Assembly (NCBI GenBank): GCA_031213475.1
Contig: JARUPZ010000034.1
Location: 5,246,680 to 5,310,679 of the forward strand
Direction of reading: 5' to 3'
DNA length: 64,000 nt
Origin: Nereocystis luetkeana
Lineage: Eukaryota; Sar; Phaeophyceae; Laminariales; Laminariaceae
The notes under the pieces were generated by a model. The model had not been told where the DNA came from. It searched no databases and worked only from the letters and a program-made list of their open reading frames with translations. Positions 450 to 63,430 of this stretch are shown piece by piece; positions within the stretch are counted from its first letter, which is position 1; every line of letters begins with the position of its first letter. A program made the translations under genes and the position numbers.

Positions 450-601
450 TTACGGGGGACCATGGTGAATAGAACCAACTATTGTTAGTAAAAATGGTTA
501 AATATATACCAGGTAGGTTTTTATGTATAACATAGGTCCTATTAACCATGGTCCCCCGTAATACTGGTCCTACCAGGTATTAACTATGGTCCCCCGTAAT
601 A
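450..601. mobile_element. Family A MITE plus extra right end
   Basis: A complete copy at 450-562 is followed by a solitary right end at 578-601, with TACCAGGTA exactly between them (571-579). Confidence 0.85.
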
Positions 602-819
602 CCTCAAAAAAGTGTGTGTGTTTACTTTTCTCGTCGGATATTTTACGATTACTCATCAAGTGTAGGTTGTAAAGTGAAGCCCATGCTCGCGGTTGGAGAG
701 CCGACTTTTTTCACGAATGACTTTTGAGAGGTATCCTTCCTGTCACGCGCATTCCGAGGTCTACGAACGATACGTCTTTATCCCGTCCGTGCCAAGATGC
801 TACCAGGTACGTATTAGTA

Positions 820-925
820 TTACGGGGGACCATAGTAAATAGGACCGAATATTGTTGGTAAAAATAGGTTAACATATAGGCTTTTGTGTTTACCGTAGGT
901 CCTATTAACTATGGTTCCCCGTAAT
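820..925. mobile_element. Family A MITE
   Basis: Complete copy with both inverted ends and flanking TA. Confidence 0.88.
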
Positions 926-971
926 AGTCGGTCATGGGACTGAAAAAATGGGCATACATTTATTTGTAGCT

Positions 972-1054
972 TACCACTCCGATCGGAAATATAAGGAACG
1001 TTCATACATTCGTACGGAGACCAAGCGGCTCTTATATTCACGCTCAGGGTGGTA
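972..1054. mobile_element. Family C MITE (TACCACTC ends)
   Basis: About 80 bp; ends TACCACTCCG..GGAAATATAAGG and CTTATATT..GGTGGTA. Other copies seen at 23834, 30028, 59344 and 61624; diverged traces near 10710 and 22285. Confidence 0.65.
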
Positions 1055-1059
1055 CAACG

Positions 1060-1246
1060 TGAATCAACTGGTGACAGCCCCTTCGTTTTACGCGAGTCCG
1101 ACGAGGAAAGAATGGGGGCTGAAGTATTCTCGGGATAGAAATGCCTTCCAAGGATATAAATGCCTTCCAAGGCACGCATCGTCGCAGAGGGGGGGAGGGG
1201 GGGAGAAGGAGGGCCCGCCATGCGATGCCGGATCTGAGTTACGACT
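1060..1246 (+). repeat. Family E dispersed repeat, copy 1
   Basis: GCGAGTCCGACGAGG..GCTGAAGTATTCTCGGGATA, CCTTCCAAGGCACG, a G-rich run, then ATGCCGGATCTGAGTTACGA. Similar at 5535-5704 and 14438-14560. Here the CCTTCCAAGG piece is doubled. No terminal repeats seen. Confidence 0.6.
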
Positions 1247-1353
1247 ATTACAGGGGACTGTAATAAATAGGACTAACGATTGTTAGTAAAAAAGCGGAAT
1301 ACATAGGTTTTAGTGTGTACCGTAGGTCCTATTTAATATGGCCCCCCGTAATA
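1247..1353. mobile_element. Family A MITE
   Basis: Diverged left end (CAGGGGACTGTAATAAATAG). Its right TA abuts the TTAA of the next element. Confidence 0.8.
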
Positions 1354-1357
1354 TTAA

Positions 1358-1447
1358 CCCTTTTAAAGCTGCAGTCTCATTTTGGGAATATACCGCTCGA
1401 ATTCCAAGTAGTGTGCCCCCAAAACGGGACTGCGTTCTTAAAAGGCT
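1358..1447. mobile_element. TTAA-target MITE (piggyBac-like), diverged
   Basis: Family B: 90-95 bp, inverted ends CCCTTTTAGNACYGCAGTCC and CGTTTTGGGGACAAAC, TTAA targets. TTAA duplication and a CCC terminus are the signature of piggyBac elements. This copy has several substitutions. Confidence 0.75.
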
Positions 1448-1790
1448 TGACAGGAGGGAGAGAGAAGAAGAAAGCGAAAATAGTTCCATGGGATGGGGAA
1501 AAAAACACCAGGTATATACGTACGAATACACAAAAAATCACGTTATAAATAGGGATCATTTTGATCCAAAAATAGTATACAAACTGCGCGCATATGTAGG
1601 GGCAGACCGGTACATGTTTCTCGAACTCGTCAAAGTGGGAAGCGTAAAAAACAAAAACACACAAAAAAGCGGGTGCTATAACACCTCTAAAATAGAGGCC
1701 ACTTTTTCCTATATATATATTTTTTTTTCTACTCATTTCATCCCATCTGTCAGGAAATATCTCCGAATCTTCCTCTCTTTCTCCCCCTCA

Positions 1791-4511: not shown

Positions 4512-7500
4512 CTGCTCCGGATCGAATCAACCCATTGGCATGGTGGTCGGGCGGAGGCGGTGGAATAGGGGGAGGGGAAGGGGGGGTGTACCAGGTACTC
4601 GATAGAAGACATGTACTCGATCTCACCTCATGCATAGCTGTAGTCGTATGGGGGAGGGGGGGGGGAAGGGGGGGGGGGGGGGGGGTACCCGATAGGATAT
4701 GTACTCGATCTCATGCATGGCCGTAGTCGTATGAACCATAGACCCTTGTGTCCCTACAAATGCCGGGACGGAGCATGTCGGGTTTTCACCGAACAGGCAG
4801 ACATCATTGCTTACTTGCACCAAGCGCGCTTAAAGCGGCGTGAGGTTTCTGGCGAGTCGCATGAAGGGTGAGTTGCATCCTAGTAAGAACGGGTGGGGGG
4901 GGGGGGGGGTACTCGATAGGAGAGATGTACTCGATATCATGCATGGCCGTAGTCGTACGACCATAGACCCTCGCCTCCCTACAATGCCGGGACGGAGCAT
5001 GTCGGGTTTTCACCGACCAGGCAGACATTGCTTGCACCAAGCGCGAAGCGCCGTGAGGTGTCCGGCGAGTCGCATGAAGGGTGAGCTGCATCCTACTAAG
5101 AATCGCTTGTGAGGCGGACTTGCATATGGATGACAGCTCCAATGAGTTAATTTAATTCCCGGTGTAGGAGGGGGGGGGGGGGGGGGTACTCATTTGACCA
5201 TTGACCACGCATCCCTCTAGAGATGAAGGAACAATTTGAAGGGGGGGGGGGGGGGGGGGGTGTACTCGATATCATGCACGGCCATAGTCGTATAACCAAA
5301 GACTCTCGCATCCCTACGATGCCGGGACGGAGCACGTCGAGGTTTTCACCGACCAGGCATAGACACCGCTTGCACCAAGCGCGAGGCGAAACGTGAGGTG
5401 TCCGGCGAGTGGCATTTAAGGGGTGAGAGGTGCCATCCTACCGTAGGCGGGGGTGGACTCATTATCATGCATGCATGGCAGTAGTCGTACGACCATACAG
5501 TAGACCCTCGCCTCCCTACAATAAAAACCCAACGCGAGTCGACGAGGGAGGAAATGACTACTGAAGCATTCTCGCGATAAAAACGCCTTCCCAGGCACGA
5601 ACCGTAGTGGGGAGGGAGGGGGGGAGGGAGGGGGACGAGGGAGGGAGGGGAGGAGGGAGGGAGGGAGGGGGGAGAGCCTTTGCTGTGTTACTCCGGATCT
5701 GAGTCCATAGTAAATAGGACCTACGGTACGAAGAAAAACTTGGATATTTCCCCCTTTTCACTACCACTATTTGGTCCTATTTACTATGGCCCCCCGTAAC
5801 AGGGGGGAAGAGAGAAGAGAAGGGCGAAGGGAAGACACTACGAGGAAGAAGAGAACAAAAAAATCGGGGGGAAAAAAATGCAAAAACGCGAACGAAAATG
5901 CAGCGATGTTGGGTAGCTGGGGTACCCGTGGATACCCCCCCCCCCCCCCCCCCCGCCCCCGCCACCACAACAGAAAACAAAACAAAAAACTGGACGGTGC
6001 CATCGATAGGCAGCAAAAAAGTCCGCCTCGCCACAAGCGGTTCCCGGTGGGATGGCAGCTCCCACCCCTCTCACGCTACCTCTCTAGCTCAAACGCCTCA
6101 CGCGCTTTCGCTTCGCAAAGCTTGGCGCGAGCAAGACACGTCTACAACAGCCTGGTCGGTGCAAAACCCGACGATGTCCGTTCCGGCACCCTCGTACACA
6201 GGGAGGGATGCGAGAGTCTATGTTCATTCGACTCCGGCCGAGCATGAGGGGAGGCGAGGGTCTATGTCCATTCGGCTGCGGCCGTGCATGACCTCCACAC
6301 GGCCGGCACAAGATGGCGGCGGGGGGGTCGGTTAGTCGATGTAAAAAAAATGGGCCACTTACTATTACGGGGGACCATAGTTAATGGGACCTATGGTATA
6401 CATAAAAACCTATATATTTAACCATTTTTACTAACAATATTTGGTCCTATTAACTATGTTCCCCCGTAATAAAACATTTGCCCAACCGGGGCGCGAGAAA
6501 AAATCGACCATCCCCACCCTCTACCCTCACGATGTGCTCCTCGGGCTAAGAACACCTTCCCCGGGGGCCGCCAAATTGGCCTTGTATTATTTTCAGCCCG
6601 CGACGACTATAAAAAAAAACGTTTTGTCATACATGGTGGATTATTTTTTACACTACCCCCCCCCCCCCCCCCCCGGTCCAACAGATAGGGGGGTGAGACT
6701 ATTACAGTAGCAAAATATACTTTTAACGTAATATATGGGGGGGGGGGGAAACGTAACGAGCGTCTGAAAAGGGCGGAGGTGTCTCAAATAGAAGGGACGG
6801 TAAAATGGCGCTGCTCCGTCTCGAAAGGGATGCGTGGTCAATGGTCCAATGACCAAGGCAAGCAACAAATGAGTACCCCCCCCCACGGATCAACTCATTT
6901 GACGCCGTCCTCGTCTTCGCAGGATGCAGCTCTCGCCCTTCATGCGACTCGCCCAACACCTCACGTTTCGCTTCGAGCTTGGTGCAAGAAACGTCTCCCT
7001 GGTCGGTGAAAACCCGACGTGCCCCGTCCCGGCATTGTCGGGATGCGAGGGTCTATGGTCATACGACTACGGCCATGCATGGCAATGAGTATACCCCCCT
7101 CCCCCCCTTCTATTTTATATAGGTTGGGTTGGCGTCGGTTGGCAACGATACTCTGTAAAACATGCCGCTCACTACGTGAGCTAGACAACCCGGGTACCGT
7201 TTTTTTTTTTTGGCGGTTGCCCACAGCTGGTTGTCGAGTTAGATCATTTGTGCGAGGTAAATAACCTTTACTCCGCACCAGTGGGAAAGATCGTGTCACG
7301 TAGTGTTCAAGGTAAGGCACCCAAGAGGCAGTTACATAGTACTCCCATTGCTGTCTCTGGAAATGCCTACACCGGAAATTAAATCAACTCATTGAAGCTG
7401 TCGTCCATATGCAAGTCCGCCTCAAAAGCAGTTCTTAGTAGGATCCAGCTCACCCTTCATGCGACTCGCCAGACACCTCAGGGAGCGTCGCGCTTCGTGC

Positions 7501-10500
7501 AAGCAATGTCTGCCTGGTGGGTGAAAACCCGACATGCTCCGTCGCGGCATTGTAGGGATGCGAGGGTCTATGGTCATACGACTACGGCCATTCATGAGAT
7601 CGAGTACATATCTCCTATCGAGAATACCCCCCCCCCCCCCCCTCCCTCTCCACACCCCAGCGCGGGTGCTCTATGTAGCGGTCTTTGCAGGGCATGGCGT
7701 GGTGCCTCTCACCCACAATAAAGAGGCCGATTGACACAGGGGTGACCGGGGAAGAAGAATAATAATAAATAAAAAATAAAAAAAAGACACGCCGCAGCTT
7801 TGTTTCTTTTTCGCAACGTGGACAGGGGGGGGGTTACTCTTAAAACCAAGTAAAAAGAAATACTAAAAACGTGTTATTTTCACACTCCTGTGCTGTGATC
7901 GCAACGCTCCCGTTGGTTTTCGATTCTGACCTCTGGAGGTGTGGCGGTGTGCGTCGTTCTTTCCTTCTCGAGGGACGCGCCTAGCTTGAACCGTCAACAC
8001 CTCTCTAGACTCAATACACTGTTGTTTTATTCTTAGTTTGGGACACGCATATTATATACCAGGTATATATATGTATATATATATAAATATACCTGGTAGT
8101 TTTTCACTTTTTTCTTCACTTTTTTTTTCATCACTGTAAAAAAAAATAAAAACCAGGGTACCATATGTTTCATCCTCCGACGGGTTTTATATTCTGTTTT
8201 TAAACAAAGCTCAACCATTGTTGTCGGGGGGGGGGGGAAAGTTCAACCATTGTTGAGTAATTCGTTCCCGAAACGGGGCTGCAGTCCTGAAGCCACATTT
8301 TCCGCACACAGAAAAGAAAAAAACAATACCGCGCGTCAGCTTCACCCGTTCCTTGGACGGCTAACCGAGCTGAAAGGAACGAAGGTGACAAATACCATTG
8401 CATCATACACTATTCTTCCCACCCGCCATCACCGCCCCACCCCCCTACCCACCTTCATGTTGTAGCCGTAGTCGAACTTGACGAACCACATGAAGCTGAT
8501 GTGAAGCACGTAGTAGACCGACATCGAAATCCCAACCAGTGGTACCATCTTTCGCATTCGAGGCCTGTTCGACCGTTTCATTCCGCGTGGTTCCGTTTGG
8601 TCCCGTTTGGTCCCGTTTGGTTCCGTTTGGTTCCGTTTGGTTCCGTTTGGTTCGGTTCGGTTTGGTTCGGTGTTGTTCGGTTTGGTTCGGTTCGGTTCGG
8701 TTCGGTTCGATTCGGTTCGGTTTCGTTCGGTTTCGTTCGGTTCCGTTCCGTTCCGTTCCGTTCGGTCCCGTTCGGTTCGTTCGTCATCCGTTGTTACGCG
8801 CGAGGCGGTGAACCGAACCGAACCGGAACGAAAGGGAAAAGGACCCGTTGGACACCCCGTCAACCATTGGCGTGATTATTGCCGCGATACGGTGGGAGGA
8901 CCGTCGGACACCCCCCCCCAATCAACCATGTGGCGTAAGCCCGAGGACCGTAGGACGGCACCACCAACCATTGTCGTAATCGTTGAAACAGCACCATCAA
9001 CCATGTTGTACCGTTGGACACCATCCACGATTGGCGTAACCGTTGCCACGAGAGGCATGAGAAGTGGGGGCGGGGGCGGGGCGGAGGGGGGGCGGGGGGG
9101 AGGGTAGGTCAGAAGGGGGAGGGGGGGGGGGTACTCATTTGTTGCTTGCCTTATTCCTTTGACCATTGATCAGGCATCCCTTTCGAGACGGAGGGCGTAC
9201 CCATTTGGTTGCTTGCCGAATACAGTAATTTTGAGCATTGACCACGCATCCCTTTTCGAGGCGGAGCAAGCGGGGCAGGGGGGGTGTACTCATTTGTCAC
9301 GCGCGGCCGTGGTCGTATGACCATAGACCCTCGCCTCCCCACAAATGCCGGGAGGGAGCACGTCGAGCTTTCACCCACCAGGCATAAACATTGCTTGCAC
9401 CCAAGCTTTGCGAAGCGAAACGTGAGGAATTTGTCGAGTCGTATGAAGGGCGAGCTGCATCCTACTGACAAGCGCTTGTGAGGCGGACTTTCTGGCAACA
9501 TGGATGACAGCATCGAATGAATTGATTCGTCTTCCGATTTCGACATTTCAAGAGGCAGCAATGAGGTAGGGCAAAGGGGTGGGGGGGAGGGGGGGGGGGG
9601 GGGGGGGGGGGGTAAGAGGTATCGAAGCCCTTTCAGCACAAAGGCCGTCCGTCGAGCTATTATAGCGCGTTCACCAATGGCCGCAAAAAAAAAAGCTCGA
9701 CCCACGTGCGTACGACTAAGCGGTACCTGGCTTTTCTACCTTTACGTTGGTTGACCTTTGCGGGCGAATGCATTCGACGCGTTGACGTAACCAGCTACAG
9801 GTAAGTTTACAGATGAGTGCTTCTTCGCTATAACCGCGGGAAAGTGCAAGGAAAATTCTCCCTGGGAGCGTAGAACAGAGCAACACATCAGCAAATACTG
9901 CAACACCAAGACCGTGACTACACCAACCACCACTTACTATTACGGGGGACCATAGTAAACAGGACCAAATATTGTTAGTGAAAATAGGTAAATATATAGG
10001 TTTTTGTGTGTACCGTAGGTCCTATTAACTATGGCCCCCCGTAATAACAGCACAGCTTTGTACCGCAACCGCTAGCGCCGTCAACGGATTCAATCAACAC
10101 CATTGACATCATCACCATCAACAACACTACAAATATCACCTCGTCCAAGACCACCGCCCAGCCCCCCCTGCCCCCCTCCGCTTGGTGCAAGCAATGCCTG
10201 CCTGGTCGGTGAAAACCCGACGTGCTTCGTCCCGACACTGTAGGGATACGAGGGTCTATGCTCGTACGACCACGGCCATGCATGAGATCGAGTACCCCCC
10301 CCCCCCCCTCCCCCTCCTCCCCCCCCCCCCCCCTCCCGTGAAAAACGTGAAAACCCGACATGCTCTGTCCCGGCATTGCAGGGATGCGAGGGTCTATGGT
10401 CACACGACTACGGCTATGCATGATATCGAGTAGATCTCTCCTATCGAGTACACCCCCCTCCCCCCCCCCCCCCCTCCCTTCCCCTCCCTTCCCCTCCCTT

Positions 10501-12164
10501 CCCCTCCCCCCTCCATCAAGGGCAGCAACAGGCGTAAGAAAATGTGTCACCTTCGGCTCTGAGGTGGTCCCGCCACACGTACGATCGCTACCCACACCAC
10601 ATAAAACACATTCCTGCCGACGGGAGGGGCAGGGAAAAGGGGACGGAGGCGGGAAAATGGGGGGGGGGGGGGGGCGGGCGGGCGGGTGTTAAAACTGATC
10701 GCTTACGTAGTACCACTTTGAGCGGAAATGCAAGGATCGTTGAGAAACTAATGTGAAGACCGGGTGGTCCATATCTTTCCCTCAGTATAGGCTGCTAGGA
10801 ATACGGGGGACCATAGTAAATAGGACCAAATATTGTTAGTAAAAATAGGGAAATATACAGGTTTTGTCTGTACCGTAGGTCCCATTTACTATGGTCCCCC
10901 GTATATCGGGGGACCATAGTAAATAGGACCAAATATTGTTAGAAAACATAGGGAAATATATAGGTTTTTGTGTGTACCGTTGGTCCTATTAACTATGGCC
11001 CCCAGCACTATTAAGAAGTGATACATAAAAAATACTGTTTCCTTGCCTTGGCGCCCTGTGTGAGTAACGGAGGCTACTCGGTACCTGTGCTTCCATGTGC
11101 CAGAAGACTCTGGCACTGGGCACCGACTACTGTTAATAGTAAATGGCTACTGACCACTGCTGCAGCATACGCGTAGTACGTACCAATCTCAAACAGGGGA
11201 GGGGGGGGGGCGTACTCATTTGCAGCTTGCCTTAGTCATTTGACCATTGACCACGCATCCCTTTCGAGACGGAGAACCGTTCCTACTCCTAATAAAGACA
11301 CCTCCAACAATTGGGCGCTCATTACGTTGTTTCCATATATTACATAGACACTTTTTGCTACTCTTATCCCCTTCTTGTTTGGCCGCCTGTGGCCACCATC
11401 TATCTCCTAGGATAGCGATCGTTTTCTCGCTGCTATCTAGTGTATCAAACTCCTCCATGTCACATTCGTCTATTTTCCTCATCTCCTCTTCTAACACATC
11501 CCGTTCCTCCTTGTATATTTCACATTCTCCTACTATGTGAGTTCTACTCTCTATCGCTTTGCCACACGGGCACATCTGTGCATCTATTTCCTCCTCCTCC
11601 CGGCTACTGCTATACCTCTTTCTTCTTTCTGACAGGTCCAGGTCACCTACACGAAAGCGCAGCTTCAGCGTTCAAACAGGGGGGGGGGGGGGGTGCGTAC
11701 TCATTTGTTGCTTGCCTTAGTCATTTGGCCATTGACCACGCAGCCCCTTCGAGACGAAGCACTTGAGGGCGGGGTGTAAAATGCTCATTATCATGCATGG
11801 CCGTAGTCGTATGATCATAGATCCTCGCACCCCTACAATGCCGGGACCGAGCCGAGCGCGTCGGGTCTTCACCGACCAGGCAGACGTTTCTCACTCGCAC
11901 CAAGCTTGGCGAAGCGCCGTGAGGTGTTGGGCGAGCCGCATCAAGGTTGGGCTGCACCCTACTATAGAGCCGCTTCTGAGGTGGATTTTCTTGCATCAGG
12001 ACGACGACAGTGTCAAACTATTTAATAGTTGATTTATTTTCCGGTGTGGCCACTTCCAGAGACAGCAATGGGTTTACTATACCAGGTATATACTATCTAA
12101 CTGCCTCGTGGGTGCTTTGCCATATACCTGGTACGCACTACGTGATACGGCCATCCCCCTTGTG

Positions 12165-12197
<33 letters not shown>

Positions 12198-15100
12198 ATC
12201 TGAGTAGATAACCCTTTTAGAACTGCAGTCCCGTTTTGGGGGCAAACTACTTGAAATTAGACTACGTTGTCCTCAAAACGGGACTGCAGCACTACTAATA
12301 AAAGGCACAACCGTCAGCGGACGGGTTTGTGGCCGGATCACGGTACAACGGTAGGGTTTGTGGCCAATATCGCGGTACTGCGGTAGTATCTGTGGCCGGA
12401 TCACGGTACATCGGTGCCTTGGACAACGAGAGCTGCCGATACAAAAACAAACAAATAAATAAAAGGTGCTGACACTGCCGTGCGGCGGATTTGCCCAATA
12501 CAGTCGTGATGCCCTCAGCAGCAGTGTGGTATAGTGCCTGGGGAATCGCTTAGCACAGACGGGTTTCACCATTATCCCCTTTAGCACCGCAGTCTCGATA
12601 AGGGGACAAACCTTTCTAATTCCAAGTGATTTGTCCCCAAAACGGGACCGGGGTCCTAAAAGGGTTAGTACTGGTGGTATACAGTGTGCGGAGTATGTAG
12701 TGCCGATCGCCGGTATAATAGTTCCGGTATTGTTGACTGGTGCATACCTGGTACCTGGACTAAAACCGCCAAAGAGACGGGGCAACCCCCCCGGTATACC
12801 GTCTTAAGGTTGATACCCCCCCAAACAAATGCCATATATACAACGAGAACTTAACTCAATTCGCCCACGTGAGGCGGAAAATCTTGCTTGGGGATCAGAG
12901 TCCGCTAATTTTTGCAGCAGTGCAGTCAATGGAAGGGTTACCAAAAAAAAAAAAAGTTTTTTTTTTACAATGAAAGCAAATAAGCTTTGCAGTCGTAGAA
13001 AAACGGCAAAAAATAAAAAAATAAAAAAATGTAGAAAACAAAACGTCCTACGTACGCTAAAGGGCAACAAAAAAAAAAAAACACTTTCGCATGCCCTTAA
13101 CATCGAAACCGTTCAAAAGTATTCGAGTTTTTTTGTAGCCCTTAGATTTTTTTTTTTTTCCCCCAACTCTTTTAGGACCGCAGTTCCGTTTCGGGGGACA
13201 AACTACTTGGAATTTGAGCCGATTGTCCTTGAAACGGGACTGCAGTCCTAAAAGGGTTTAATAACAGCATCAAAAAGGGGTTCAAAACTAACACAACTAG
13301 GACGAAATCATGGACCACTCACACATGATGAGCTACGTACTTCAGTTCAAGGTAGGCCCGTTCTCGATCTTGGTTTAGCTCATGCTACCACTACCGGTTG
13401 GGACCCAAACAACCCTTATGATCTATAGCAGCACATGTTTATTGAGTGGGATCTGCCCTACAAGGCAGATCCTGCACACAAAACCTCTCACAACGGCGGG
13501 TGAGGAACCAGATGATCTGTCTGTAGATATATAGATAGATAGATAGATAGATCATGATCTGTACGATCTGTCTGTCAGAGATGTGAAAATCTTTCAAAAA
13601 CAACTACCAGGTACCAGGTACCAGGTACTAATAAAAAAAACATGATCACACACAGACCCTAAAAAAACAACAAGAAGCAAAAAAATAACAAAAACGAAAA
13701 AAATCAAAAACAAAAACAAAAACAAAAAACTTACAGAAGGGCAAAGAAGTAGTCCGCCGCTTCCGTCCAAGGAACATCCCTCGCGTGGAAAACCGTGGAC
13801 CAGAGCCAGGTGTTCATGCCGACCCATGGATAGAGCGATAGCCACAGGCGCATGTAGTTTCCCTGAGGGTTATACAGTCCTGGGCGGCGGGATGACAGCG
13901 GGGGGGGGGCGGGGGGGTGGGGACGAGGGGGGCTGCGGCGTGACTATCTCCAATCCATGGACTGCATCGCGTGACGTTCCCGAGGACAGCCCGGGGCAGC
14001 CATCTCGACGGCTGCCTCGGCCATCGAATTGCTCCACCACTCAAGCACCACCACGGTTCGGGAAGCCCTCGAGGCCCTCCCCAAAAGTCACCACCAACCC
14101 GGACGCCAAGACCAGATTGCTCCGAGGGGTATCAGATAGCACCACCTCAAGTGCAGCCCACACGCCGCTACGGTTCGCGCTTCGCTCCGCGCCCTCGGCC
14201 TCCGTCAGCGCCCTGCGGAGGGCTGATATATACTGCTGTAGTATTTCTGCACCATCACGTGGGAGCAGGTAAGGCTCCGGTCGCCCCTGTGGGTCAAGTG
14301 GTTAACCTCGAATTCTACTTGTGTTTGAGTCCTGGGTTCGAGCCCCAGGTGGGTCGGACTTTTGACTTTATTTGCAAAAAAAAAAAAAAAAGGACTCAAT
14401 TGTTGAGAGCGCCTTGCAGCGTGGGTAGGCACAATTTCGATGCGAGTCGACGAGGGAAGAAAAAGGCTGAAATTTTCTCGCGATAAAAATGAAGGCACGT
14501 ACCGTAGCGGGAAGGGGGGAGAAGAGCCTGCTATGTGACCCCGGATCTGAGTTACGAGTTGGAAGGAGAGAGAGAAGAAGATGTGCGAAGATAATAAATG
14601 GGATGAGAAAAAAAAAGAAGAACAAAAGCAGTGGTGCCAAATGGGGCATATATATATATATACTTCGTATATATATGGGTGGGATCAGGGTAGAGTCGAC
14701 GCGTTCTGCGATAGATGTAGCACATTTCCGCTAAAATATTTTTCTGGATGACGAGGTTCCGTAGCCCAAAATCGTCGGAATGCCAATCTTGTTTCGAAAA
14801 AACGAGTTTTTGTATACTTGGGCCGTGGGGCTACTCATCGGGTTGCAGTTTTGATTTTTGATGAAGTCAGTTTTCGAGTGAGGTATGGAGCCCCTTAGGT
14901 GAGGAGCCTCAGAAACGTTACTCGTTGGGTGAAGCTCTATCGTAGCACGACTCAGGTGTTTGACTAGAGTAATGAAAAAGCGGAGGTGTGGTTAGTCTGT
15001 TGGGCATCCCGTTTCACCCCTACTACTACTACTACTACTACTACTAGTGTGGAACACGAAAGGAAGACACTCAGAATAGCGTGTGGGCTGCACGCAGGTG

Positions 15101-18100
15101 CTGCAGTCGATACTGGTTGTAAATATAGGCGCCGTCCAGAGGGGTGGGGGTCGAGGGCTGGGGTGGGGATACTCAATCGTCGTCACGGTAGCTACATTTT
15201 CAGGACAATTGAGTTCGAGGCACTGCTGTGGAAGCAATCACAGTCAACATCATCATCATCATCATATTCACCAATACCGTAGGATGATGCTGGTCATTAT
15301 TTGCCATCACCAACACCCCCCCGTCCCCCCCCTCCGTGCTCCGTCTCGAAAGGGAAGCGTGGTCAATGGTCAACTGACGAAGGCAAGCAACAAATGAGCA
15401 CGCCCCCCCCCCCCCCCCCCCCCCCCCCCCCGCCCCTACATTATGTATCTCGTATATATAGGTTGTATTGGGTTGGGTTGGCGTCGGTTGGCAACGACTC
15501 TGTAAAACATGCCGCTCACTACGCGAGCTAGACAACCATGGTACCGTTTGTTTTTTTTCAGCGGTCGGTAGCAGCTGGCGATCGAGTTATAGATCATTTA
15601 GTGTGGGGTGAAGATCCTTAACTCCGCACGAGCGGAAATGACCGCATCACTTAGTGTTTACGGTAAGGCACCCACAGGGCAGTCAGATAGTATAGTAAAC
15701 CCATTGCCGTCTCTGGCCGTGGCGGCCACAAGGGCAAATAAATTAGCTCATCGAAGCTGCCATCCATGCGCAAGCCCGTTTCACAAGCGGTTCTTATTAA
15801 TAGTAGGATGCACCTCGCCCGTCATGCGACCCGCCGAGCGCCCCACGTTTCGCTCCGCGCGTGGTGCACGCAATGCCTGCCTGGTCGGCGAAAACCCGAC
15901 GTGCTCCATCCCGGCGTTGTAGGGATGCGAGGGTCTACGGTCATACGACCACGGCCATGCGTGACCTCGAGTACATCCCCCGACCGCCACCACCCCCACC
16001 ACCCCACAGCACCTTACCACACCTATGGCCCGCCCATCATCGCCATGACCAGCATCATTATCCTCGTAGTCGTCTCCACCAGCATACGATCGTACTGACA
16101 ATGACCCCCACCACCACCACCACCACCACCAACACGACCAACACCACCACCACCGATGCCGCTGCTACCGTAATGCATACCACCACGTTCCGAAAATATA
16201 TGAATGGCCGGTGGAGAAGGGGCGGCGGAGGTGCGGCGGAGGCCGGGGAGCGCGACCCGCCAAGCGAGCGGCCGAGGAAAAGCGAAAGCGAGCCGCCGTG
16301 CCGAACGGATTTGTGTCCGGGGACCCCCAAATCCAGTTTCCAAGCTGGGGGTTTCCACTGCACGCTGAGGCTTCCTCTAGATGGGCCGATCGGTCATATA
16401 TATATATACTTCGAAGTATATATATATCCATGCGAAGACATCAGCTCCGTCGGTAGAGCGTGCGCCTAAACGCTCACAGGCCATGATTCTCCGGGGGGAT
16501 CTAGTCGCAGGTCTGGACGTCAAGGGCCTCGCGCAGGCGCTACGGCGCCGAGCGGGCGGAATCGATCCGCGACGCCGGCCGTTGGAGACGAGGCGGGGGC
16601 ACACGCCTCAGCGAAGAAACCGCGCGGAACGGCGGTTCAGAGGCCGGAGAGATCGCCAGACCAAAATATGACCAGATTTTTCGGCTAAGAACTAAAAATA
16701 AGATACCAGGTAGGTGTATTTATATGCAACCGATCGTTCTAATTCGGGACAGAGTCGTAACATGTGCGGATTTCCTTACGCTGGTCGTTAGGCCGTTCGC
16801 TTGGTTGGGGGCTGAACAGAATTCACGCAAACAAAACGAACGGCACGGCTGGACCAATGGGCCGTTCGTTTCATATCAGCTGCACCAAAACGTCATCGGA
16901 CCGTACCTTTGCGTCACCCCGACGTCCGAATGCCTCCTCAAAGGGAAACCTGGTATACACGTACACCGATACCTTTCTTTGCGTTTCTACCTTTTACCTC
17001 GAGAGAAGATGACGTGGTAAAAGTGAGGAAGACCGTTTCCGGCTGAGAAGAGCGATGCGAACAGCTCCTGAATGCCCCACACTCGTCTGGAATTTTCCGA
17101 GAAAAATCGCGCGAAGGCGGCGGGAGGCATATGGGGGGGGGGGGGGGGGGGGGAGAGACGGCGGGGGTCGCGGTGGGCGCGCGGGTGGGAAGTCTAGGGT
17201 GGGAGTGGGGTCGAGGTGGGGGTGGGAGTTGCCGTTGGAGTAGAGGGGTAGGCGTAGAGGTGTGGGGGGGGTGTGTGGGGGGGGTAAGGTAGGTTTGCAA
17301 CCCCAGCTCTGACCCTAACCCCACTCCTCTACCCCCTATGAAGGTGAACATGTTCATTGCAACGCGAACATTGCACGCCCAGGACAGATCATGATCTAAA
17401 CTAGTAGATCAGATCTACAGTAGCAGTAGCTCTGCAAAAGGTACAGAACAAAAATTTCGAAGAAAAAAATATATATACCAGGTATATACAAACAAGAATA
17501 CCAAAAAAAAAGGGTTAAGGAGCTCCGCCCCGGCAGCCAGAAACGTTTTTTTTTTCCCCTCGAAATATGCCACTAATACTTGCTACCTGTGTTGTAGCAC
17601 GCGTCTTCTTTCCGAGTTTTTTTGTTTTAGGCGGTTCGGGGGGGATAAAGGTTGACCGCAAAACTCGAGTTTATTTGGTGCAATACTCCGCACTTCCGAC
17701 AGGTCGTCGCCTGCCAAAGGTCGTCGCCTCGACGTTCCAAGACAGATCTATATTCCCGATCGTGTATTATCTACTGTTTGTGCAGTACGGAGTACGGAGC
17801 CCATGCATGCCGGGTGGGGCACGCATAAAATCTGCATCATCCTGCACACGATGATTCCTGCGGGTGGGGTCTGTGCGCTATGACGCAGACCCCTCACGAA
17901 AAAAAACTCGCACAACGGCAGATGAGGAGCTACGGCAGTAGACGATCTACGTACACAGATAGATAGATCATGATCTACGTACGCAGATAGATATATCATG
18001 ATCTATCTGATCTGTGCGAGGTATGAAAACATTTTTTTTGAAGCTCGGCCGAGGTCTTTTACATGCCAGCTCTCACCTGAAGGGCCACTTCCCATGATAT

Positions 18101-27298: not shown

Positions 27299-27403
27299 GT
27301 CTACACCAAGGTTGTGAACCGAAAACCGAAAGTCGTGTTTTTCGGTCGTTTTTATTTCGGTTTTTCACGACCGAAAACCAACATATATATATAGATATAT
27401 ATA

Positions 27404-27509: not shown

Positions 27510-27529
27510 AGGAATATTTCTGTATGTTA

Positions 27530-49364: not shown

Positions 49365-51802
49365 CGTTGCTGCCGCTGTCGCAGCCGGGGCATTACCCTT
49401 GCTCTCTTCCTCGGCACGCGCCGGCTGCTTCTCCTCCCCCTTCTGCTGGCGGCGGTGGTGGTGTTGGTAGGGAGCTGGTCCTTCCTCTAATTCTTCGGTG
49501 TACCCGGCGGCGTACAGGCCGGGGGCTAGGCGTAGCCTGCGCCTGCATCAGGTATGTCAGGAAACAGGTGGGGTAGGGTTAGGGTTAGGATTAGTTCGGG
49601 GGTGCGGGTGTACTCATGTCCACGCATGGCCGTGTAGTCGCATATGACCATAGACTCTTGCACCCCCGCAATGCCGGGGAGGGGTGTACTCACTATCATG
49701 CAATGGCCGTATATAAGTCATGTGACCATAGACCCTCGCCTCCCTACAATGCCGGGATGGAGAACGTCGGGTTTCCACCGACCATGCAGACATCGCGTGC
49801 TTGCACCAAGCGCGAGGCAACGGGCGTCGTGAGGTGCTCGGCGAGTCGAACGACGGGTGAGCTGTATCCTACCAAGCTTTGGGGGTGGGGCTGGGGGTGG
49901 GGGGAAGGGGAGCGGGGGGGGGAGGGAGAGGCGTGCTGGGGCCAGAGTGGTCGTTTAGGCTTGGCAGTGGGGGGGGGGGGCGAGACAAGCAATACGACAG
50001 TCCCACTAATTCCTGAGCTTTCTCGATCTCGGATCTACTTGATGGTGCTGCTGCCGCTTCTGTGGTTTCAGCCTCGCTTTTGCCTCTGCTGCTGCTACTG
50101 CTGTTGATGATGATGATGATGATGTTGATGATGATGATGATGTTGATTATCTACCGTCGCAGTGCCGCTACCGTGCTATTTTAGTGTATTCGGCCACTCG
50201 ATGAAACACAAAAATAAAGGAGCATGTCCCACCCCCCCCCTTTTTCCAGGTTATACCTGGTATTATATTTAGGTTGGGTTGGCGTCGTTCGGCAATGACA
50301 CTGTAAAACATGCCGATCACTACCTGGGATAGACAACCAGGGACCGTTTTTTTGTTTTGGCGGTCCGTCACAGCTGGTGATCGAGTTATATCGTAGATCC
50401 TTTGCGCGCGGCGGAGAGCCTTCACTCCGCACAAGAGCAATGATCGCATCACATAGTGCTAATGGCAAGGCACCCACGAAGCAGTTTCACAGCACTCCCA
50501 CTGCTGTCTCTGAAAGTGGCCACGCCGGAAATTAAATTAACTCATTGAAGCTGTCCTCCATATGCAAGTCCGCCTCCAAAGAAAATCTTGGTGTGAATAG
50601 GATGGAGCTGCATGCGACTCGCCGGACACCTCACGGCGCTTCGCGCTAGGTGCAAGCAATGCCTGCCTGGTCGGTGAAAACCCGACGAGCTCCGCCCCGG
50701 CGTTTTAGGGATGCGAGGGTTTATGGTCATACGACTGCGGACAAGCATGATATCGAGTACACCCCCCACCCCCTCCCCTTCCGTCCCGAAAGGGATGCGT
50801 GGTCAATGGATAAATGACTAAGGCAAGCAACAAATGAGTACAATCCCCCCCCTCTCCCCTTCCCAGATACCTATCCAATTCACCTGTTCATCCATCCATT
50901 GATCATATGATCCCACATCCAATTCATCTAACCATCCATCAACCCAATTTAATCCATCAATCCATCCATACCAGAGGATGTGGCAGCAGGACCATACCCG
51001 ACATAATCCCCCCCTCTTACCCTACACTAACCTACCCTTCCCTGCCCTTCCCTACCCTACCGCACCCTGCCATACCCGTACCCTACCCTAACCTGGTCTT
51101 ACCCTGCTCTGCCCTTCTCTACCCTACCCTTCCCTACTTGATCCTTCCCTACCCTACCCTATTCTACCCTACCCTTCCACGCCCTACCATACTCTACCCA
51201 TTGACCTGCTCTTATCCTACTTCGCTCTACCGTGCCGTACCCTACCGTGCCCTACGCTACTCTGCCCTATTCTACCCTACCGCGCCTTGCCATACTCTAC
51301 CCGTATCCGTACCCTACCCTACCCTACTTTGCCCTACCCAACTCTACCCTACCCTACTTTGTTGTACTCTACGCTACCGCACCCTGCCATGCTACCCGTA
51401 GCCTGCCCTACTATGCCCTTACTCTGCCCCTCCCAACCCTACCCTTCCCTATCCTACCCTCGCCCCCCCTCGCCTACCCCCTCGCTCACCGCTGCAAGTT
51501 TTTCGACGTTGGCGTAAGCTGCACAGCCCCCCCCTCCTCCCTCCTCCCGCCCCGCCCCCGCCCCCGCCCCACGCCCCCCGGACCGCCCTGCCTCCCTCCA
51601 GCTCGAGCCGCTCGAACCCTCTCCGCGGCGCTCCTCTCCGAGTCAAGCTTCGCCGCGGCCGAGGACAGCGGTGTTAGGCCCCGCGCGGGGGGGTTCCTCT
51701 TGGCCAGGCCCAAACGCCTCCGCGGGTTTCGGATGGAGGGAATGATGGGATCGAGGGGTCCCGGGATGTACACGACGCGGCACACCGTATTCTCCAGTTG
51801 GG
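48043..51802 (-). CDS. Probable multi-exon gene of unknown function
   Basis: Four stretches on the minus strand look coding and carry plausible splice signals: 51802-51490, 49542 to about 49300, 49234 to about 48312, and 48232-48043 ending in TGA. I recognise no domain. The product would be largely disordered (Ala, Gly, Glu and Gln tracts) with some well-mixed parts, such as LLKLLWAIEHDRWLQELLEK and GAFCVVELDMPGAVEAG. The first junction (phase 2, CGG/GTGAGC to GCAG/G) fits; the middle junction does not resolve cleanly between frames and could include a further intron. The intron between the first two pieces contains a CCCTA array and two SINE/LINE fragments. No start codon is assigned. Confidence 0.5.
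48312..49234 (-). CDS. Unknown minus-strand gene, long low-complexity exon
   Basis: Opens after CCCTCAG with a Glu/Gly acidic run, then GTPDDPIVLEIQALGRS, a Gly run, TTPDESVILLTRLGGARA, a second Gly/Asp run, and a long Ala-rich helix with DLASVRKKHESAVAA and LLKLLWAIEHDRWLQELLEK. The two related phrases TPDD/ES(V/I)xL(E/T) suggest an internal repeat. It ends near a possible donor CTTAC/GTAGAC. The frame is open for more than 300 codons. Confidence 0.5.
49300..49542 (-). CDS. Unknown minus-strand gene, second exon
   Basis: Acceptor GATGCAG/G or GCGCAG/G (six bases apart, same frame). In the frame set by the previous donor it reads LRLAPGLYAAGYTEELEEG and then APYQHHHRRQQKGEEKQPAR, followed by an Ala run. 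The 3' end is unclear: the downstream piece is in another frame, so a donor near the GCAGCA repeat is assumed. Confidence 0.35.
49612..49880 (-). mobile_element. SINE-like R repeat, truncated
   Basis: Contains a duplicated tail (GGGGTGTACTCA at 49606 and 49682). Confidence 0.62.
50265..50775 (+). mobile_element. SINE-like R repeat, full copy
   Basis: Begins TATATTTAGGTTGGGTTGGC and ends ATCGAGTACACCCCCC. Confidence 0.68.
50780..50850 (+). mobile_element. LINE 3' stub
   Basis: CCGTCCCGAAAGGGATGCGT..CAACAAATGAGTACAATCCC directly after the C-tail of a SINE-like copy. Confidence 0.6.
50998..51480. repeat. (CCCTA) pentamer array
   Basis: The complement of the 32 kb array, more diverged (CCCTG, CCGTG, CCTTC variants). 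It lies just downstream of the first exon of the unknown minus-strand gene, inside its intron. Confidence 0.88.
51490..51802 (-). CDS. Unknown minus-strand gene, upstream exon
   Basis: Acceptor GCACTCAG/CC and a strong donor CAGCG/GTGAGC. Reads NTVCRVVYIPGPLDPIIPSI, then RNPRRRLGLAKRNPPARGL, then a Ser/Ala/Arg segment and an Arg-Gly run, and ends AVQLTPTSKNLQ. The opposite strand is Pro-rich with no comparable signals. No family recognised. Confidence 0.5.
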
Positions 51803-53114: not shown

Positions 53115-53590
53115 GCCCTATAGAGGGCAGCTATTAATAACACGATTGATAGCTAGCCCTTACTCTATCCCCCAACCCGAACCCTATCTCCCACTCGAAA
53201 CGCAAGCAAGGCTTGAAACCCGGGGATGGCGCGTAGATGTCCCCATAGTTGTGATTTCAATATCTCGCCGACGTAGTCCGTGATAATCGCTTCCCTTGGA
53301 GCGATATGCGTAGCTATTTGTTGGTAGAGAGAAGTGGGCGGGCGGTTGAAGGGGTTGGGGGAAAGGGAAGCGGGGGGGGGGGAAGGCACCGTTGGAAGAT
53401 ACCTGGTACCTGGTAGCTATTAATAGCTATTCCGGGTGGGCATATGTAGTAACATTCGGAACCAAAAATGGTGTGCGAACTTAGGGGGATACGCGGTTTT
53501 GGAGTCCATCGTGGGTTCCGATTACTATGACCCCTGCGTATAGCTATACTCCGTGGCTGGCAGAGGCGAACGGTAGGCTACACCACGACC

Positions 53591-58079: not shown

Positions 58080-60570
58080 AATGGGGGTGGGCGATTGGAG
58101 ATTGGTTGTTATTGGTATGATAGCTTCAAAGTGAGTGAGTGAGTGAGTGAGTTGAGCAAGTGAACGAGTAAGTGGCGAGTGAGTGAGTGAGCGAGCGAGT
58201 GTGTAGGTGAGGGAGTGAGGGGGGCAGGGAGGGATGGAGACGGTGGAAGAAGTAGCGGCACATCGATCCGACGTTCGGGGCTGGAGGTAGGGGGGGGGGC
58301 GTTGATTCGTGATGAGTGATGATGTGTGAGTGACTATTAGTTGGCCAATGGGAGTGGGTGAATCGAGATTGGTTGTAATTGGCATGTTGAGTTTCAAATT
58401 TTCATGGCACAGCCTCTTAAAAATGCGTTTTTTCTCTAACTGCTGTAGAGCTGTAGTTCGATCTGTTTGTTTCAGATATTTAGCCCTACTGCTGTAGTAA
58501 TCCAACCCTGACCTCCATCGCCTAGGACTTTTTCTCGGAATCGCCCAGGAAATTTCTCGGAATGGGGATGCGCCGAGGAGTTTTACGAGGACAATGCAAG
58601 CGGTGCCCCGCAGGATTTTCCAGGGTTCGGGCTGATCGATTGTTCGCGGGCTAGGAAGCACTTCCTGGCAAATATGTCAGGAGACAGCACTTTCACCCCT
58701 TGACAGCCAGCAACTTTGCCTTGACATGCCTTGACTGGCACCAAGATACTTGGTTTTAGTGTGGAGCACTCGGCCCTGAACCCTTTGACAGCGCACGTTT
58801 TGCGTTGCTTGACGTGTCTCCTGACATCTTTGCTTCCTGGCGGGACCAAGGAACGGGCGTAGACCCAACCCTACCCCTACCCCCAACCCTGACCCCGACC
58901 CCAACCTGGGCCCAAAAACGGCCCAAAAACGGGCGAGAAATGCGGCCGCGCCTCTTTCGCATAGTTGTTCACAACATTCCTAACCTGCGGACCACGATTT
59001 TTCGATTTTTCCCCTCGCACTATCGGTGACTGAAAAATTCCCCGAAACTTCCCGGAAAGATGGCACCGGATGAGGTGCGAGCGAGTATATACCTACCGCT
59101 GTACAATTCGCACAGAGTTTAGAATACAAGAGTGTTGACTACCTGGGATTAATTAATATCAACGATTTTTTGTCGGAGCTGGGCCCGGGTCGTAACACCC
59201 AGAACACTACCACCGGTGCGTACTTCGGTGCCCCTAATCCCTGATGATTGGGGGTTGGAGGTATCGGGGTTTCTGCTTCAAGTGTCCACCTTGACCCCCC
59301 TAGAGCACCTTGACCCCCCTAGAGCACCTTGACCCCCCTACGACTTTGTCCCTGAATATAAGGAACATTTTATGTATTAATATTCAATCAAAACGAACCT
59401 CATTTATTTAGGGACGGAGTGGTACGTGCACATACCGATAGGACATGGGTATTTGCGAGCAGCAGCGAACGACCGGGGACTCTGGCCCGGCTGGGCTGGC
59501 CCAGCCTGGGTTATTGCTTCCTTGGGGGGAGGGGTCCATTCTGCATTTTTCTTGACTGAAAACTTCGGCGGAAGTACGAACGGCTGCCGAATTTCGTACC
59601 ACCATCTCCGTGCAGAAAGAGGTCTCACGAGCCTGGTCCTCTTCCACGTAGCGTTCGTGCTGCTGTGCGTATCATGCATATCATATCGTGCACCTTTGTA
59701 CCAGGTATTCGTCATGTTCAGAAATGGAGAACAATTGCATTTGCCTCAAAAACGACGAGGTCCGTTTGCGGCGCGATTTGGGCACGGAGGGTCGATCGCA
59801 GGGCGCGGGCGGGGGGCAACAGCGCTTGCGCGCTCTCACGCGCGTCACACCATGGTTTCCCCCTTCCCTTGAGCATGTCTCAGGTCCGCCACGATACACT
59901 GTCGTGTTAACGGGCTCTAACGCCCGCGGGTCTTGCTGGCAACCCTTGCGCGTGTTGCGATAACTTATGATACGCCTCTCTCTGCTCTGTGCTGAAGGTC
60001 TACTATGACAAGCAGTCAGGAAGCGGTACCGGGAGTACCTGCCTGTGTGCTGACTGGAGGTAGATAAATGTTCGTGTTTGGCACATTGATTTGGGGAAAT
60101 AATTTTCAACAGCGGTCTCTCACCTCCTCGATCGCCATATCGCGTGACTCGGGGCCACGGCGGAAGCTGGCAATATCTGCACCAGAGCTAACATTTCCTT
60201 TTTCTTCCATGTCTTGCGTTCGATAACAACAGCTGCGCCTGACCCAAGGGGTCGCCAGGGTGCTGCGGGTGGGCATCGTGATAGCACGGGAATTCCCGAA
60301 TGAAAAACGCTAACAACATGTAGTGGAACTCCCACATTCTTTGAATTATTTTCACGGACATGCTTCGCCTCCGCTCTCCCCGCGCCCACACAGAGCCACC
60401 CCTTGGCAAGACCTCAAGGGTTGCCGACGAATTTATACAAGCACCGAGAGATCTTTGGTGTCGGATGACTCGCAGTTGACTGGTAGCTTAGAGCAGAGGA
60501 CTTAGCAAAGAACTTCAAGCTCAACAATATAAGAGAAAAGCTGGTGCGAAGTTTTTTAGTTCCCGAGCGG
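58080..60570. other. Region without a recognised gene
   Basis: A duplicated 90-bp block (about 58010-58110 and 58260-58400) surrounds a GTGA array at 58130-58210. GACCC/AACCCT-rich sequence related to the insert at 55.2 kb lies at 58850-58930, and a family C MITE at 59344. A plus frame at 59426-59872 is open, but with no family match. Confidence 0.45.
59344..59424. mobile_element. Family C MITE
   Basis: CTTTGTCCCTGAATATAAGG on the left and TTAGGGACGGAGTGGTA on the right. It immediately follows a three-fold repeat of CACCTTGACCCCCCTAGAG. Confidence 0.65.
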
Positions 60571-60578
60571 TTTTTCGT

Positions 60579-61287
60579 ATGGGTAAGCGCAGCAGAGGCG
60601 GGGGAAGGAAAGGTAGTCAAGGCCATGCCCAGCATGGCCGTGGAAGCTGGCAGCAAGGCAGCGGGGGGGGGGCAACAAAAAAGCGTAGCTGGCACGAAAT
60701 GGGCAACCGCAGCAGCAACGGCAGTGGTGGCGGCGGCGGCGGTGGCGGCGGCTTTGGCCTAGTCCAGGCACCCTCAGCCAGGCCATTCGGCATCCAGGCT
60801 CGAGCAGGAGGTGGAGGTGGCTGGCCTGGGTCGAGCAAACGAAGCAACAAGCTTGGCAACGGTGGTGGGAGCGGTGACGGTGGCGGTGGATTTGCGTTGA
60901 CCAACCACGCAGCTAGGGGCGCATTACTCTCCCACTACCAGCAGGCTAAGCCGTGGCAGCAGCAGCAACAGGCAGGAGCAGGAGGTGGTGGTGGTGGTGG
61001 TGGTGGTGGTGGTCGTACCAGCTCTGGCAATGAAGAACCGTCACTATCTCCACCACCAGTAAAACCCGGTCGACCTATTAATAATAACAGCAATCGCGAT
61101 AGTATTGGTACCGGCAACGGCGGCGGTGACAGCACGGCGCGGGACTACCTGGCGTCCGCCGTCTCGCAGCACCCCCTGCGGCGCCGCATAGAGTTCCACC
61201 CGGCCAGCAAACCATCGACCGTGTTTTCTGCGCCGAGCACTGGTCAGGGCATTACCAAGGTGGTCGGAGGCGGCGGTAGCGGCAGCA

Positions 61288-61318
<31 letters not shown>

Positions 61319-61448
61319 CGGTAGTGGCGGCTCTGCTGACCGTGGGAAAGGACGAGTGAAGGCTGGGGGGGTCGATGGGGGGGGAGGGAAAGCGGTGGTG
61401 CTTGCGCGACTCGCGGACGAGAAGATAGGGCTGCCTTCGGGGGGTCAG
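60579..61448 (+). CDS. Probable first exon of an unknown Gly-rich protein
   Basis: An ATG at 60579 opens 290 codons that end at a good donor, GGTCAG/GTATGT, in phase 0. The start reads MGKRSRGGGRKGSQG, basic and Gly/Ser/Gln-rich, as in many RNA-associated proteins. Gly runs, a short poly(Gln) and GRTSSGNEEPSLSPP follow, then better mixed stretches: TARDYLASAVSQHPLRRRIE, FHPASKPSTVFSAPSTG and VVLARLADEKIGLPSGGQ. No domain recognised; a nucleic-acid role is only a composition-based guess. The next exon was not identified, though KCDLNIVLPPKETYEH at about 63540 is a candidate. Confidence 0.55.
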
Positions 61449-61520
61449 GTATGTTTAGCTGGATGTTTGATGCCACAGGCCCAATAGTAGGTACCACAGC
61501 AGGTAGCGCACCTGGGATAT

Positions 61521-61601
61521 AGGACTGCAGTCACATTCTGAGGACAATCCACTCTAATTTCAAGTAGTTTGTCCCAAAACGGGACCGCAGTCCTAACAGG
61601 G
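61521..61601. mobile_element. Family B MITE, left end truncated
   Basis: Begins at AGGACTGCAGTC and ends CCTAACAGGG followed by TTAA. Confidence 0.78.
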
Positions 61602-61623
61602 TTAAGTAGTACCGGTATGCCAC

Positions 61624-61705
61624 ACCACTCTGGACGTTAATGTAAGGAACGTTGGAATATTAAATCTGGTACTAAAACGAACCTTACATTTCCGGACAGA
61701 TTGGT
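61624..61705. mobile_element. Family C MITE
   Basis: ACCACTCTGGACG on the left and TTACATTTCCGGACAGATTG on the right, 20 bp from a family B copy. The right end runs into TACCAGGTA. Confidence 0.65.
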
Positions 61706-61709
61706 ACCA

Positions 61710-63430
61710 GGTACTGCTGCTGTATATATCTGGTACATTTCTTTCCCAAATATATATACCAGGTACCGGTACGTATTAATAGCACACCCGCACCTTGAAC
61801 TACTCTGCAACTTCAGATTTTGTCTCTTTTCTCATTTTCATCGACTGACTGCTGTGTACGTATGATATGCACCCTGCACGAGGCCATCTGAAACCCGTAG
61901 TACGCGCGATCGATTTATGTTATCACAAACAACTCGCGAATATACATGAGTTTCGACGAAATCCTTGATCTCACAGCTGTTTTTTTTTTTCAATTTTACA
62001 AAGCTCTTACGAGTATCTCAGGTGTGATATGATAATAAAATGACATGTTACATGGTATGTACAAGCGCTTCGCGTCACGGGCGGCTCCGCCCGCTACACT
62101 CGCTCACGAGTCATGAGGAAGAAGAATGGAACGGAACAGACGGTCCGAACAATTCATTCGGTGAAAACGGGCGATTTGCAATGTCAAGAGCTCCACGCTC
62201 CATCCAGGAAAACAACCCGAACGCCGCATGCCGCACGTACGTACATACCCCAGGTAGGGTACTTTTTCTTTTTTGATACGATGTGTCTACGAAAGAGAAA
62301 GTACAGCATGGCACAGCAGCAGCCCCGCAAAAACATTGAAAATTTAAACCGAAAATTTCGGGAAGAAAAAAACATCCCCGTCCCCTCTCATGTATACTAT
62401 TTTCCTGCCTGATTGGAACGCCTTTCACCGGTCAAAAATAAAAAAATCGAACAGCGGAGCTTCTGTCTCAGCCTCGTACACCGCCCGCCCCTCTCGCGAC
62501 CACCACGCCACCGATTCGGTCGGGGTAAATCTTACCCCCTATCTGCCACAGTGAGCCCCGCCGCCCGCCTCGCGTGAAGCCCGGTGGTCACCGTGGCCCT
62601 AGTTCGCCAGCTCGACAATGTTGGTGCTCAGACGGTGTAGCTCTCTCTGTGAACTTCAGCTTGGTCGCAAAAATAAGCACCGCTCGAATATTATTTTGCG
62701 GTCCCGAACGGCCCTCATAGACTGGTACATACTCTATCCAACTCCACAGATGGAGGCCAGACAGAGCCCATTCATGCTTTCCTCGTGTCTCGAGGCACAC
62801 GCGACGCCTAGGCACGAAAACGGCGATCGCGCTCCTCGCAACCCCCCCTCTACCCGGCAGCACCCGCTGACACCCGCGACGGCGCTGGGCTCGCCCGCGG
62901 TGCCGAGCTCTGAGTACGCGCACGCACACGAAACGAAAGAAGAACATAACTGAAAGTGCAAAAATAAAAACGAGGACACGAAGCACCGCTGGAAAGGTCC
63001 GGCAAGTAATGAAAGGAGGCGGTTTCGAAGTGGGGAGTTCTAAGAGGCCAGGGATGTACCAACCGAGCACGCTCAGAGAGTGAGATATCTGTAAGTAGTT
63101 CTATATACAAGGCTCCCCTTCGGGATGTGGTTCATTTGAAGTACCGAGGGTGTCGCAAGTTGATAAGGGGGGAAAATCACCCGATCAGGCGTTCCCATAT
63201 ATGTAAATGACGGGATAGGTTTCGACGATGTAGGTGGTCGATTAAACAATTTGGACCTGAAAACGTACTGCCTGCTGCTGCTACTGCTGCTGTAGTCATT
63301 GGTTTGCATCTTCTTCTGGTGGCGAAACGCTGCACACACACAAAACACAAGAAATCACCGTGAACGTCACGAAAAGACCCAGAGCGCGACGCGCGGGTGC
63401 TGTTGTGCCACTTGCTGGTTGACTGCTAGC

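Follow-up and report, generated by a model that had tools for sequence, protein, structure and literature searches.

Dispersed TACCWGGTA palindromes in Nereocystis luetkeana are probably excision footprints of a TA-target transposon

Why should one nine-base palindrome, TACCWGGTA, be scattered over a stretch of brown algal DNA in which chance would hardly place it once? The stretch, called the window here, comprises 64,000 nucleotides of the Nereocystis luetkeana assembly GCA_031213475.1 (contig JARUPZ010000034.1, positions 5,246,680 to 5,310,679 of the forward strand). A first-pass annotation of it had reported about 34 exact sites and suggested that they might be bound by a protein, be scars of preferred insertion or of excision, or be micro-repeats that copy themselves. 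We counted 34 exact matches, 22 TACCAGGTA and 12 TACCTGGTA on the plus strand, at coordinates agreeing with the earlier ones to within one base (Table 1), whereas 100 dinucleotide shuffles of the window contained a mean of 0.30 and a maximum of 2, and third- and fourth-order Markov models predicted 0.4 and 0.8, respectively. No other palindrome built of 4-base arms around a 0–3-base centre reaches so high an observed/expected ratio in the window. We argue below that it is very probably the footprint left by excision of a cut-and-paste transposon inserting at TA.

The excess extends through the genome. In twenty 10-kb stretches, one from each of 20 other contigs of the assembly (200 kb), TACCWGGTA occurred 60 times (0–8 per stretch), which extrapolates to ~140,000 sites in 465 Mb, with counting error alone giving ~107,000–180,000; the window is ~1.8 times as dense as this sample (34 per 64 kb versus 60 per 200 kb). 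The overlapping doublet TACCWGGTACCWGGTA was found at 15,917 places genome-wide, against 2 for the reversed control, and also in 9 stretches of viral contigs; doublets amount to ~11% of TACCWGGTA sites. The annotation had named two refuting outcomes, genome-wide counts near expectation and confinement of all sites to one known repeat family; neither is seen, as the counts far exceed expectation and the sites are spread over several unrelated repeats and also occur outside repeats.

Both the centre and the spacing of the motif are strict. In the window, TACC and GGTA were separated by exactly one base 36 times (A 22, T 12, G 2), by none 7 times, by two never, by three once, and by each spacer of 4–15 bases 0–8 times, and across the 264 kb of window and sample the centre of TACCNGGTA was A in 58, T in 36, C in 2 and G in 2 of 98 occurrences (94/98 A or T). 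One-mismatch copies numbered 22 in the window, where ~10 were expected (summed by hand), and 86 in the 264 kb, where 48.9 were expected and 94 copies were exact. Because 94 exact copies stand against an excess of ~37 one-mismatch copies, most scars are little worn, and less worn than the window copies of the repeat family A described below, which are 76.5–92.7% identical to their query. Beside the 94 CCWGG copies are 12 with CCGG and 5 with CCAGGG, the latter being 5 of the 9 two-base-centre TACC-NN-GGTA sequences in the other 200 kb, and both could be repair variants of a CCWGG scar.

Related short palindromes were also frequent. TACCGGTA is over-used, at 7 against 0.65 expected in the window (for example at 61764–61771, 29789 and 57555) and 12 against 3.0 in the 264 kb, and may be the scar minus its central base. 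TACWGTA (TACAGTA or TACTGTA), present at 18 window sites (for example 32581, 32602, 32615 and 23705), exceeds the fourth-order model 3–4-fold in the window and the third-order model 1.5-fold in the 264 kb; its form is that of a 3-base TA-target footprint, and it may belong to another element.

Repeat copies that span a site reveal what stands there when the motif is absent. In 276 kb (the window, the 20 stretches sampled at random and, picked for their doublets, four loci of 3 kb), we delimited 95 site groups, single or tandem, 13 of which had a homologous copy spanning both flanks. At all 13 more spanning copies fitted the empty form, a plain TA, than the filled form (134 of the copies scored as empty, 40 as filled and 10 as tied), whereas other TANNNNNTA (TAN5TA) places, used as a control, preferred the empty form at 41/189 (561 copies empty, 1381 filled, 58 ties; Fisher p 1.1e-8). 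Site 507 reads TACCAGGTA, and none of the 13 other window copies aligned on the same strand carries the insert, their reading at this point being plain TA in 10 and CA or AA in 3; across the 276 kb, 38 copies fit the empty and 13 the filled form. The six aligned copies at site 4589 read TA in five cases and TT in one. An exact 7-bp difference between filled and empty forms is clear at 507, 571 and 4589. Because copies read TA where the sites read TA...TA, the alignments of several repeat families are best read as showing a 7-bp insertion (where cleanly readable) at a pre-existing TA, converting TA to TA-CCWGG-TA.

Family A, the repeat that contains site 507, offers a single target in many copies. 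It is a ~110-bp repeat resembling a miniature inverted-repeat transposable element (MITE), with inverted ends TACGGGGGACCATAGT.../...ACTATGGTCCCCCGTA, and is probably itself a TA-target element. Genome-wide, 952 copies carry CCWGG-TA at one TATATA hotspot, against 0 for the reversed control; the search pattern demands the right TA only, and the left TA is also kept in 95 of the 100 filled places listed. Read by eye in the fixed orientation of family A, these 100 places have CCTGG in 63 and CCAGG in 37, so that one target carries both forms. CCWGG is followed at this hotspot by A, C or G at 53 places and by T and then a base other than A at 27 places. Ten of the 53 were inspected, of which seven are CCAGGG forms (four followed by TA, two by GTA and one running straight into family A), and in the other three the following T is changed.

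Arrays of the motif share their TA and have a period of 7 bp. The 264 kb contain 85 arrays, 77 of them single footprints and one a triple (A-A-A). Of the 59 plus-strand doublets listed for C1, 40 repeat the same unit and 19 combine an A with a T unit (by eye), with overlap in triples accounting for two pairs of the mixed ones. The mixed triples A-T-A and A-A-T were read at two loci fetched for their overlapping doublets. Mixed units cannot arise by slippage.

The surroundings of the insertion point to a symmetric target preference. With the insert removed, TA lies at −7 in 28/95 and at +7 in 32/95 of the groups, against a background of 6.7% (1006/15084; p 1e-11 and 7e-15, sides counted separately). 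At other distances the left and right counts among the 95 were 19 and 20 (2 bp), 9 and 11 (3 bp), 27 and 21 (4 bp), 9 and 5 (5 bp), 7 and 9 (6 bp), 14 and 8 (8 bp), and 5 and 13 (10 bp); a purine directly left and a pyrimidine directly right of the site are also favoured (two sides pooled). Only ~4 of the 60 five-base stretches between these TAs come within one base of CCWGG (by eye), indicating that the partners at 7 bp are not merely older worn scars. Random choice among TAs would re-hit ~1% of scars (0.5% of TAs scarred, two TAs each; hand arithmetic), against the ~11% of sites that are doublets. A scar adds a second TA at just this 7-bp distance, so that the footprint itself would supply the favoured target, which may explain the arrays.

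Taking the empty sites, the family A hotspot, the A/T centre, the mixed period-7 arrays and the symmetric flank preference together, the last two being predictions of a footprint that were borne out, we consider it very probable that TACCWGGTA is an excision footprint, consisting of the target TA, CCWGG from the transposon end and the duplicated TA. A transposon with both ends starting CCAGG (or CCTGG) would insert at TA and duplicate it. On excision its transposase would cut within each end, five bases in, so that both flanks keep a 3′ overhang reading CCAGG, and these overhangs would anneal by CC/GG around one central A-A or T-T mismatch that repair would fix as A or T. The enzyme would favour TA targets with a second TA 7 bp away, so that scars would draw new insertions and build period-7 arrays, and the intact element would by now be rare or gone. 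The scar is thus the member of the annotation's three proposals that the data favour; the binding site leaves the empty sites unexplained, and the micro-repeat survives only insofar as a scar may turn its own site into a preferred target for a further one.

Several observations weigh against the footprint model, among them the want of a parent. In 315 kb, made up of 3–10-kb stretches and the 64-kb window, we recognised no intact element with CCWGG at its ends; the best of 47 half-site pairs there (L012:964-1458) matches at 11/20 end bases, and it has no second copy in the same DNA. Half-sites are not clearly in excess (96, against 33–111 for ten similar 7-mers), and 11/96 have a repeat-like left flank, with a clean element boundary seen in none (both by eye). 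The top scores among 543 inverted CCWGG pairs, full sites included (276 kb), stem from footprint arrays. None of the ten inspected family A half-sites is an element, because in each of them the family A sequence continues a few bases further on at most. A genome search with the DDE_3 profile (PF13358) gave 0 matches with 30 candidates scored. The empty-site evidence has weaker points too: at 12080 and 12125 the copies lack the insert yet differ by more than 7 bp (by 11 bp between 12080 and the copy at 15624–15743, and with further small differences between 12125 and its family C copies), the vote at L026:5762 is narrow (26 copies empty against 22 filled, with 6 ties), and family A supplies 4/13 of the loci (507, 571, L022:6298 and L026:5762). 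At the family A hotspot T is commoner than A (63/100, p 0.012), and doublets of one unit type are more frequent (40/59 listed, p 0.009) than the 50% that independent resolution would give. Together these two excesses indicate that duplication or inheritance has some part; duplication may account for a portion of the arrays, and some of the 952 family A copies may descend from fewer events. Finally, TACCAGTA occurs 15 times by raw count.

With none found in 315 kb, the rule of three (hand arithmetic) would put the intact copies in the genome below about 5,000, a soft bound given that most stretches were of 3–10 kb and that a long or cut element would escape the pair test. For each standing element there would then be perhaps thirty scars, which is the chief oddity here; the element is perhaps extinct or hardly stays where it lands. 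These literature searches found no publication on the motif, the listed text matches to TACCAGGTA and TACCTGGTA being judged unrelated from their titles and the starts of their abstracts.

A 7-bp insertion at TA might instead come from another process, such as abortive integration, a TA nuclease with templated fill-in or a minimal element consisting of the scar alone. Such a process would agree with the parent not being recognised in 315 kb and with a scar more uniform than published excisions, of which 8/94 in rice are given as perfect (PMC4423477), and the empty-site and target data demonstrate insertion, not excision as such; with the element not found, the latter is our inference. We nevertheless regard this origin as improbable, in that two identical transposon ends would be expected to leave behind just such a symmetrical CC-W-GG whose central W is free, and the Sleeping Beauty excision footprint, quoted as TAG(T/A)CTA (PMC2874221), has the same form. 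Selection for binding of a dimeric protein could also give a palindrome that is sharp, dispersed and accompanied by few one-mismatch relatives, as seen in the window, but copies of the same repeats lack the motif and fit plain TA, the motif overlaps itself in mixed arrays, its flank preference lies 7 bp out and resembles a TA-target preference, and the sites number ~140,000 by extrapolation. We therefore find a binding site scarcely credible as the origin, while binding could be a later use of the scar.

The period-7 arrays and their same-unit excess are what a heptamer microsatellite, (TACCAGG)n, growing by slippage would produce, and bacterial genomes do have such arrays, with a triple in 40 stretches. 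In those bacterial loci, however, the triple-bearing array is uniform in 35/40, whereas 19/59 of the listed algal doublets are mixed, 77 of the 85 algal arrays in 264 kb are single footprints with one triple among the rest, and unrelated repeats have received lone copies at TA, so that slippage is as remote an origin as protein binding. Two transposon types were rejected: piggyBac (TTAA target, seamless excision) by the TA target and the remaining scar, and PIF/Harbinger, described with a 3-bp target duplication and mostly precise excision (PMC4561436), by the 2-bp TA duplication and the 5-bp scar.

The bacterial stretches themselves (L047–L086, including Acidimicrobiia, Chitinophaga, Gemmatimonadetes and a Deltaproteobacteria bin) are mostly uniform arrays of the TACCAGG heptamer, some of which adjoin related heptamers (TACTTGG, TACTCGG), with several per genome in a few bins. 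These uniform heptamer repeats are a different thing from the present scars.

If the footprint model is right, one transposon family has been excised about a hundred thousand times and has left a readable record of its visits, in which tandem scars count successive visits to one spot, its five-base scar would exceed the range quoted for Tc1/mariner elements, and the scar itself would satisfy the element's target preference. One assembly would then suffice to measure excision history, repair bias (A versus T) and target choice, and there would be an explanation for an over-used palindrome that might be mistaken for a regulatory site. A stronger version, in which excision has removed the element from almost all its places in the sequenced cells, by itself or by a domesticated transposase with near-obligate excision, strikes us as very unlikely; were it true, the assembly would hold ~140,000 scars and hardly any elements, the process would be programmed or continuing, and scars would feed further insertions at the TA 7 bp off.

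Table 1 Footprint sites, repeat copies and other features of the window.
Feature	Position	Strand	Evidence
Footprint in MITE-like repeat family A	507..515	.	Motif match and copies
Footprint within GGTCC-TA-TTAACTATGG of family A	571..579	.	2/2 spanning copies fit empty
Footprint	801..809	.	Motif match
Footprint in repeat family B	4589..4597	.	Spanning copies: 9/10 fit empty, 1 tie
Footprint inside TA run	8057..8065	.	Motif match
Footprint adjoining TA run	8090..8098	.	Motif match
Footprint in repeat family C	12080..12088	.	Empty form the better fit in 7/7 spanning copies
Footprint in repeat family C	12125..12133	.	6/6 spanning copies fit better empty
Footprint, then partial second unit (CCTGGA)	12745..12753	.	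Motif match
Three overlapping footprints, shared TA, period 7	13605..13627	.	Motif match
Footprint	16704..16712	.	Motif match
Footprint inside TA run	17476..17484	.	Motif match
Footprint, TA 7 bp rightward	19081..19089	.	Motif match
Footprint	20502..20510	.	Motif match
Footprint, TA 7 bp rightward	21443..21451	.	Motif match
Footprint	21530..21538	.	Motif match
Footprint	21830..21838	.	Motif match
Footprint	23687..23695	.	Motif match
Footprint, close pair no. 1	23762..23770	.	Motif match
Footprint, close pair no. 2	23773..23781	.	Motif match
Footprint	23959..23967	.	Motif match
Footprint	25239..25247	.	Motif match
Two overlapping footprints, shared TA	38177..38192	.	Motif match
Footprint	44565..44573	.	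Motif match
Footprint adjoining TA run	47215..47223	.	Motif match
Footprint	50254..50262	.	Motif match
Two overlapping footprints, shared TA	53400..53415	.	Motif match
Footprint	59699..59707	.	Motif match
Footprint	61705..61713	.	Motif match
Footprint overlapping TACCGGTA variant at 61764-61771	61757..61765	.	Motif match
Family A copy, empty site AAATATA-TA-GGTTTTTG, counterpart of site 507	9937..10046	+	Copy alignment
Family A copy, empty site, counterpart of site 507	27402..27511	-	Copy alignment
Family B copy, empty site GTG-TA-CTCGATAGG, counterpart of site 4589	30327..30403	-	Copy alignment
Family A copies	1-103, around 507, 818-926, 1245-1353, 3501-3610, 6363-6471, 9937-10046, 10802-11003, 27402-27511, 29823-29927, 45832-45943		
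Per1-like exon, above Pfam cut-off	18079-18207	-	10 long window frames scanned
LANC-like stretch, below Pfam cut-off	36177-36254	+	10 long window frames scanned
Tandem repeat, GGTTC/CCGTTTGGTT units, within long open frames of both strands	8573-8783		

The annotation had also placed the sites largely outside exons, a statement weakly tested here: the two stretches matched in Pfam (Per1 and LANC-like) among the 10 frames scanned contain 0 sites. Scanning the window against Rfam gave 0 matches at the gathering threshold, and a tRNA search gave 0 matches.

Mariner-Tc1 elements are a TA-target class. In the brown alga Ectocarpus they are described as mostly short non-autonomous copies, in 17 families and almost 12,000 copies, and the word "footprint" is absent from the main text of that paper (PMC12477816). 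TA-target elements are reported to leave 3′ overhangs on excision that become the footprint (PMC7827188), and the present scar resembles those of Sleeping Beauty and Tc1/mariner elements in its TA target, its duplicated TA, the few bases left behind, presumably of the element's end, and the central A or T, the last consistent with a repaired central mismatch. The symmetric AT-rich target preference agrees as well, the related ZB element being described as preferring a palindromic AT repeat (PMC7913693). Two differences count against the likeness, namely a footprint of 5 bp where 2–4 bp is the Tc1/mariner range given in the same source and a uniformity unusual for end-joining repair; unlike those systems, moreover, the scar has no parent found here and is present in ~1e5 copies by extrapolation. 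Stowaway MITEs of Triticeae and rice likewise leave TA-flanked end fragments, their excision overhangs being reported to consist of element sequence (PMC4561436), and in Australopyrum a new insertion next to an earlier footprint is recorded at the same TA (PMC1925063), reminiscent of the tandem scars. The Stowaway fragments, however, are of 1–4 bp, of several kinds and at single loci, whereas in Nereocystis luetkeana mainly one form recurs genome-wide and builds period-7 arrays.

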